This document shows, piece by piece, positions 47,054 through 47,598 of a DNA stretch of 64,000 nucleotides; position 1 is the stretch's first letter; each line of letters begins with the position of its first letter. The position numbers were made by a program, and so were the translations under genes. Source of the stretch: Kalmanozyma brasiliensis GHG001 (taxonomy: Eukaryota > Basidiomycota > Ustilaginomycetes > Ustilaginales); the NCBI RefSeq assembly GCF_000497045.1, contig NW_015961961.1, positions 186,001 to 250,000 on the forward strand, read 5' to 3'. The notes beneath the pieces are model-generated. The model was given only the letters and a program-made list of their open reading frames with translations, did no database searches and was not told the DNA's origin.

Positions 47054-47598
47054 ATGCCTCCACGCCCACAGCAAAGCGTCAAATGTCTTCCGGGGCAAAC
47101 CAGCGGTCGAGCGGCCCGCGCTACCCGACGCTACCGCGCCCAACGAACCGCCCTCGAGCGCATCACGAAGGGCTCCCTTCGTCGACTTGCCCGTCGGGGC
47201 GGTGTGCAGCGTGCGTCGTTACTTCCTTTCCAGATTCTCCCGTGGTTCAAAGTGGCGCTGACTTGTTTGATTGCGGTGGGTGAAACAGGGATCGCCGGCA
47301 CGGTGTACGAAGAATCGCGCTTCATCCTGCGCGACTTTCTGACGCAGGCGATCCGAGATGCTGTGGTCTACGCTCGTAGGTGTTTCCCCTTTCCCCTTTC
47401 CCTCGTTCCTCCTGCCCCTCCTTGTTCGACTCCCGAGACCTCAACTGACACTGTGATCTTCCCTCGTGTCGCTCCGCATGGCAACGCATCGCTCCGCATC
47501 GCCTCGGCGCGGTAGAGCACTGTAACCGCAAAACCATCTTCACCATGGACGTCATCTACGCGCTCAAACTGCAAGGTCGCACGCTATACCACTTCTAG
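47054..47598 (+). CDS. divergent histone H4 variant (3 exons)
   Basis: Exons 47054-47210, 47289-47375 and 47516-47598. Introns of 78 bp (GTGCGT donor, CTGAC branch, ACAG acceptor) and 140 bp (GTAGGT donor, CTGAC branch, GTAG acceptor). The product is 108 residues. The histone-fold core is clearly H4: [52 protein letters not shown]. By eye about 46 of 72 core positions (H4 29-100) agree with canonical H4, whereas ordinary H4 is nearly invariant. The tail is unlike H4: no [11 protein letters not shown], one lysine (Lys10) before the core, and an Arg-rich stretch ([11 protein letters not shown]) where KRHRK would be. It ends LYHF instead of LYGFGG. A canonical H4 must exist elsewhere. Role unknown: specialised nucleosome, meiotic or spore chromatin are possible. 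Confidence 0.88.

Follow-up and report, generated by a model that had tools for sequence, protein, structure and literature searches.

The window analysed here is a 64,000-nt stretch of the Kalmanozyma brasiliensis GHG001 genome (C14:186001-250000; the assembly comprises 17.27 Mb in 26 contigs). On its + strand, at 47054-47598, lies a gene of three exons whose spliced product is an open 108-aa protein, a divergent histone H4. One copy was found, on the 562-kb contig C14, flanked by ordinary eukaryotic genes. The features of the locus are listed below in window positions, with codons in canonical H4 numbering.

46021..46820, + strand: RNase H2 subunit C, the upstream neighbour (PF08615, E 1.3e-17); exon 1 at 46021-46698, short exon 2 at 46809-46820 by eye
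46969..46974, + strand: TATAAA, a possible core promoter element ~80 nt upstream of the ATG
47054..47210, + strand: H4 variant exon 1, covering the N-terminal tail and the beginning of the histone fold and ending on base 1 of the Arg45 codon
47211..47288, + strand: H4 variant intron 1, 78 nt, phase 1, GTGCGT..ACAG; branch-like CTGAC with its A at 47261
47289..47375, + strand: H4 variant exon 2, remainder of codon 45 through base 1 of codon 74
47376..47515, + strand: H4 variant intron 2, 140 nt, phase 1, GTAGGT..GTAG; branch-like CTGAC with its A at 47448
47516..47598, + strand: H4 variant exon 3, remainder of codon 74 to codon 100, ending in LYHF and the stop TAG
47595..47598, either strand: CTAG palindrome, stop TAG for both the H4 variant (+) and the convergent esterase ORF (-)
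47595..48383, - strand: phospholipase/carboxylesterase family protein, the convergent downstream neighbour (PF02230, E 2.1e-16)

Translation is taken to start at the ATG at 47054, with an in-frame TAG upstream at 47042-47044. Each intron has a single CTRAY branch-like site (CTGAC), and in each the acceptor is the first AG downstream of that site. An alternative intron donor, GTTACT, was dropped because the GTGCGT donor yields a gap-free alignment to H4, a choice that was guided by H4 and is not independent of it. An earlier note on this DNA had proposed three exons with canonical splice sites, an open 108-residue H4 and a C-terminal LYHF; the GT..AG introns and the gap-free alignment agree with this reconstruction, and exon 3 does close with LYHF and a stop. 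Intron 1 is a multiple of three in length and stop-free in the reading frame, so that its retention would insert 26 residues within the histone fold and leave the frame unbroken there. The TATAAA signal is weak, TATAWA being present in 192 of 5000 shuffles of the examined 228-nt stretch. Since the CTAG palindrome reads as TAG on both strands, the 3' untranslated ends of the H4 variant and esterase transcripts would overlap, giving antisense RNA.

Compared with the PDB sequence set by phmmer, the product has histone H4 as its best match (E = 2.5e-28), and the 60 matches listed, of 90, are all entries named H4. Together with an alignment that runs without gaps across residues 21-100, this places it among the H4 homologues and bears out the earlier reading as an H4 paralogue. 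The acetylatable tail of canonical H4 is another matter: of its 20 residues, just 3 are the same in the variant when the two are aligned gap-free. Judged by its sequence, the protein is an H4 paralogue and not canonical H4. Pfam was rejected as a test of H4 identity: the variant scores 21.2 bits against the Histone model, under the 26.4 cut-off, but the canonical H4 of the same genome likewise scores 21.2, misses the cut-off and matches CENP-T_C, so the model is a poor test for H4. The best Pfam match of the variant is also CENP-T_C, at 27 bits, slightly under the cut-off of 28.1, as might be expected if it were some other histone-fold protein (CENP-T/W, TAF6 or similar) with a resemblance to H4. 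Such an identity is highly improbable and was rejected: the PDB matches listed are all H4, and canonical H4 itself matches CENP-T_C first, at 31.5 bits, so this model cross-reacts. A stronger CENP-T_C match, above the cut-off at 45.4 bits, lies at C18:97500-97763 in an 1147-aa frame, which is likely the CENP-T gene.

Histone H4 is among the most conserved of proteins, and H4 variants are rare. The canonical H4 of this genome (exons within C22:265895-266331) is identical to an animal-type H4 (u5175) at 66 of 72 positions over residues 29-100. Over the same residues the variant, aligned gap-free from the C-terminus, shares 46/72 with the animal-type protein and 43/72 with its own canonical H4. 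The figure of 46/72 core identities that the earlier note had reached by eye is thus exact for the animal-type H4, and becomes 43/72 for the genome's own. Extended to residues 21-100, the variant and its own canonical H4 are identical at 44 of 80 positions (55%), with 36 changed; the YALK and QGRTLY stretches are among those retained. The DNA-contacting arginines R35, R36, R39 and R45 are all still present. R92, another core residue with a known role in H4, is Leu in the variant, and this is one of several radical core substitutions (G56F, L60D, T82F, R92L and K77N) that are unusual for H4 and could make for weaker nucleosomes or weaker H2A-H2B docking. There are two Cys residues, compared with none in the canonical protein, and the C-terminus is the equivalent of F100, two residues short of the canonical end. 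The introns also differ in position: the canonical gene has a single 128-nt phase-0 intron after Lys20, which the variant lacks, having instead one phase-1 intron in codon 45 and another in codon 74.

The N-terminal tail has been replaced. The 31 residues before canonical residue 25 include one Lys and seven Arg, compared with five Lys and four Arg in the 24 residues of the canonical tail, so that the single tail lysine claimed earlier is confirmed in a tail seven residues longer than the canonical one. The earlier note had also pointed to Lys5, 8, 12, 16 and 20 as sites of modification; the variant has no lysine at any of these positions in the gap-free alignment, and while alignment of the tail is uncertain at such divergence, there is only the one Lys in the whole of it. 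In the protein overall there are four lysines, compared with 11 in canonical H4, and only three canonical ones, K31, K79 and K91, are retained. In the basic stretch, K16-R-H-R-K-I-L-R is replaced by T-R-R-Y-R-A-Q-R, in which a positive patch is preserved by arginines at 17, 18, 20 and 23. Through this basic patch, canonical H4 makes contact with the acidic patch on H2A-H2B of an adjacent nucleosome (PMC10878826).

Differences between the variant and canonical H4 genes fall 32/17/42 by codon position over 80 codons, with dN of 0.33-0.41, dS of 1.16-1.27 and dN/dS of 0.26-0.35 across three choices of range, a ratio that is rough because dS is near saturation, and that averages both lineages, so that a recent loss of function would stay hidden in it. 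For comparison, the canonical H4 gene was mutated without selection to the observed 91/240 differences in 5000 simulated runs, starting from the present-day gene and not from the true ancestor. These runs retained a mean of 28.9/80 identical residues and a maximum of 40; none of the 5000 reached the observed 44/80, and 731 were free of stops. Codon adaptation to the H3 genes is 0.336 for the variant, with a null of 0.204 +/- 0.029 (~4.5 s.d. below) built on the base composition of the window and not on coding third positions. Values for five neighbouring genes or gene parts are 0.23-0.38, and canonical H4 reaches 0.641; codon use in the variant fits an expression level much lower than that of bulk H4.

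Taken together, dN/dS, the neutral simulation and codon adaptation weigh against a pseudogene of long standing and suggest modest expression, with a very recent loss still compatible. They support long purifying selection on the core. On sequence grounds, then, the variant is not a long-dead pseudogene. That it died recently, under constraint until lately and now decaying, is unlikely: the several radical core substitutions would agree with decay, but the reading frame is intact from start to stop over its 108 sense codons, as are all four splice sites and both branch-like sites, and codon use stands well above the composition null. The H4 gene described here is real, divergent and was long under constraint; other fungi have genes of its kind, but its anatomy is its own.

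Six-frame searches of the genome, with either a generic H4 or the variant as query, whose counts are lower bounds, found at least two H4 genes, the canonical one on C22 and the variant, and no further H4 copies. The corresponding H3 search found two H3 genes, on C26 and C22, the latter adjoining canonical H4 on the opposite strand. An H3-like gene at C14:11818-12144, with 73% identity to H3 across residues 34-134 and an insertion in the loop region (by eye), is probably CENP-A; it shares its contig with the H4 variant. Elsewhere, at C25:525374-525472 (- strand), an ORF of 247 aa from its ATG starts with MARTKTTARKSTGGKAPRKLLSTQSSSKVAP, which nearly reproduces the tail of histone H3, with K4, K9, S10, K14, K18 and K27 all present. 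Over its first 93 nt the ORF agrees with the C26 H3 gene at 63 positions, and the differences fall 8/4/18 by codon position, so that the tail itself looks constrained. In the ~215 residues after the tail there is no Pfam match at E 0.001, and the H3 core was not found there. The ORF is a candidate for a non-histone protein that carries a mimic of the H3 tail, and no fungal protein of this kind was among the papers listed by a literature search. In a search for viral or contaminant relatives, the pattern was matched in 32 stretches, none of which encodes a relative.

Divergent H4 proteins have been described in other fungi. H4E, as described by Flipphi et al. (2024, PMC10878826), has an intron pattern of its own and few Lys or Arg in its tails; it occurs in Pezizomycotina, basal Taphrinomycotina and some Glomeromycota. 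By the same account, expression of the A. nidulans protein is poor at 25 C and good during nitrogen starvation at 37 C; it is nuclear, binds H3, and can be deleted without phenotype. An H4 variant of N. crassa is mentioned in the part of PMC6703697 consulted, and H4 variants are called infrequent in that of PMC8015243; "H4 variant" and "hH4v" do not occur in the portion of PMC2442719, a review of fungal histone modification, covered by a term search. The earlier note knew of no described role for such a protein in smuts. This was incomplete, since the lysine-poor, intron-rich H4E/hH4v of fungi is described in PMC10878826. No Basidiomycota H4 variant is among the matches listed from titles and abstract openings in the open-licence PMC literature. 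The word stem "basidiomyc" is likewise absent from the main text of PMC10878826, and a basidiomycete would fall outside the range of H4E as described there.

The resemblance to H4E (A. nidulans hheA; N. crassa hH4v), as far as the sections of PMC10878826 used here allow it to be drawn, is considerable. Both are second, divergent H4 proteins with a conserved core and a longer, Lys-poor N-terminal tail; in both a basic patch is present and Lys16 is replaced, and the introns are unlike those of canonical H4 genes. The C-terminal tail of H4E, however, is longer than the canonical one, while that of the variant is shorter, and the 5-16 aa insert of Eurotiomycete H4E is absent. Nor is the variant located between nudA and svf1, a synteny reported for H4E in Eurotiomycetes and Dothideomycetes and not expected outside them: SVF1 is on C7 and a dynein heavy chain on C25, with the variant on C14. 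Finally, its two introns, both phase 1, are 87 nt apart, and the H4E model in the text of PMC10878826 has no two such phase-1 introns, so that at most one intron could be shared. For want of the longer C-terminal tail and the nudA/svf1 neighbours, and because its introns cannot both be those of H4E, the variant is called H4E-like here, not H4E. More distantly, human H4G (H4.7) and Trypanosoma brucei H4V are also rare H4 paralogues beside bulk H4, the former with a shortened C-terminus as well (PMC10878826, and for H4G also PMC8015243, both in part), but these are nearer their canonical H4 (85% and 80% as reported there) than is the variant, at 55% over residues 21-100.

There is about an even chance that the variant is an independent, lineage-limited H4 duplicate, perhaps made via cDNA and with new introns, in which loss of the tail lysines is convergent with H4E. 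Absence of the canonical phase-0 intron and presence of two others would agree with this history, H4E synteny, C-terminal tail and intron spacing all misfit, and independent origins are left possible for the Glomeromycota H4E in the parts of Flipphi et al. (PMC10878826) that treat it. Against it is a hint that the split predates canonical changes in this lineage. At seven sites in residues 16-100 the canonical H4 differs from the animal protein (u5175); of these the variant matches the animal protein at three (E52, A69 and M84, where its own canonical H4 has D, S and L), its own canonical H4 at none, and neither at four. These are three conservative sites and weak as evidence, and at the six sites where the canonical H4 differs from another PDB H4 (u75590) the count is two own, two other and two neither, so the sign of an old split does not hold generally. 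An early split of the variant from canonical H4 is weakly suggested.

The other history, in which the variant is a further branch of fungal H4E, from a single ancient duplication before the Glomeromycota/Dikarya split, with many losses and retention here, is possible but doubtful. Presence of H4E in both Ascomycota and Glomeromycota would agree with it (PMC10878826, in the relevant sections), as would the traits in common, namely the longer Lys-poor tail with an Arg-rich basic patch, the replaced Lys16 and the introns unlike canonical ones, as well as E52/A69/M84 and the fact that the variant is no nearer to its own canonical H4 than to animal H4. The shorter C-terminal tail, the separate contigs of SVF1 and the dynein heavy chain, and the spacing of the two introns all speak against it. 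A stable H4E tree was not obtained by Flipphi et al., as the consulted text of PMC10878826 states.

Whichever its origin, the variant is probably best explained as a genuine and maintained gene encoding a divergent H4 of the replacement type, a minor, nucleosome-forming histone that would escape marking on tail lysines. It would be made at a low or condition-dependent level, outside the S-phase supply of histones, would pair with H3, by analogy with A. nidulans H4E (PMC10878826, in part), and, given the conserved core, may be assembled into a minor fraction of nucleosomes. There its tail would keep its positive charge but would carry no acetyl marks at K5, K8, K12 or K16 and no methyl marks at K20. 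Charged yet unmarkable at the usual lysines, it would let its nucleosomes escape acetylation-driven opening and the readers of these marks. The role in spores, meiosis, the centromere or silent chromatin that the earlier note proposed is a guess. More tentatively, this could be a basidiomycete member of an ancient second fungal H4 lineage, so far reported from Ascomycota and Glomeromycota alone, in which an acetylatable tail has been swapped for an Arg-rich one, making for a chromatin state that cannot be opened or read through the H4 tail lysines.

Thus a single genome has one detected canonical H4 and, beside it, another H4 with just ~60% of the core in common and with the usual tail positions devoid of lysine. 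As the A. nidulans H4E can be deleted without phenotype (PMC10878826), an unrelated second system would be useful toward its function. If conserved and expressed, the variant would bear on whether H4E-type variants of fungi had single or multiple origins, and would be a natural test of what the H4 tail lysines are for.
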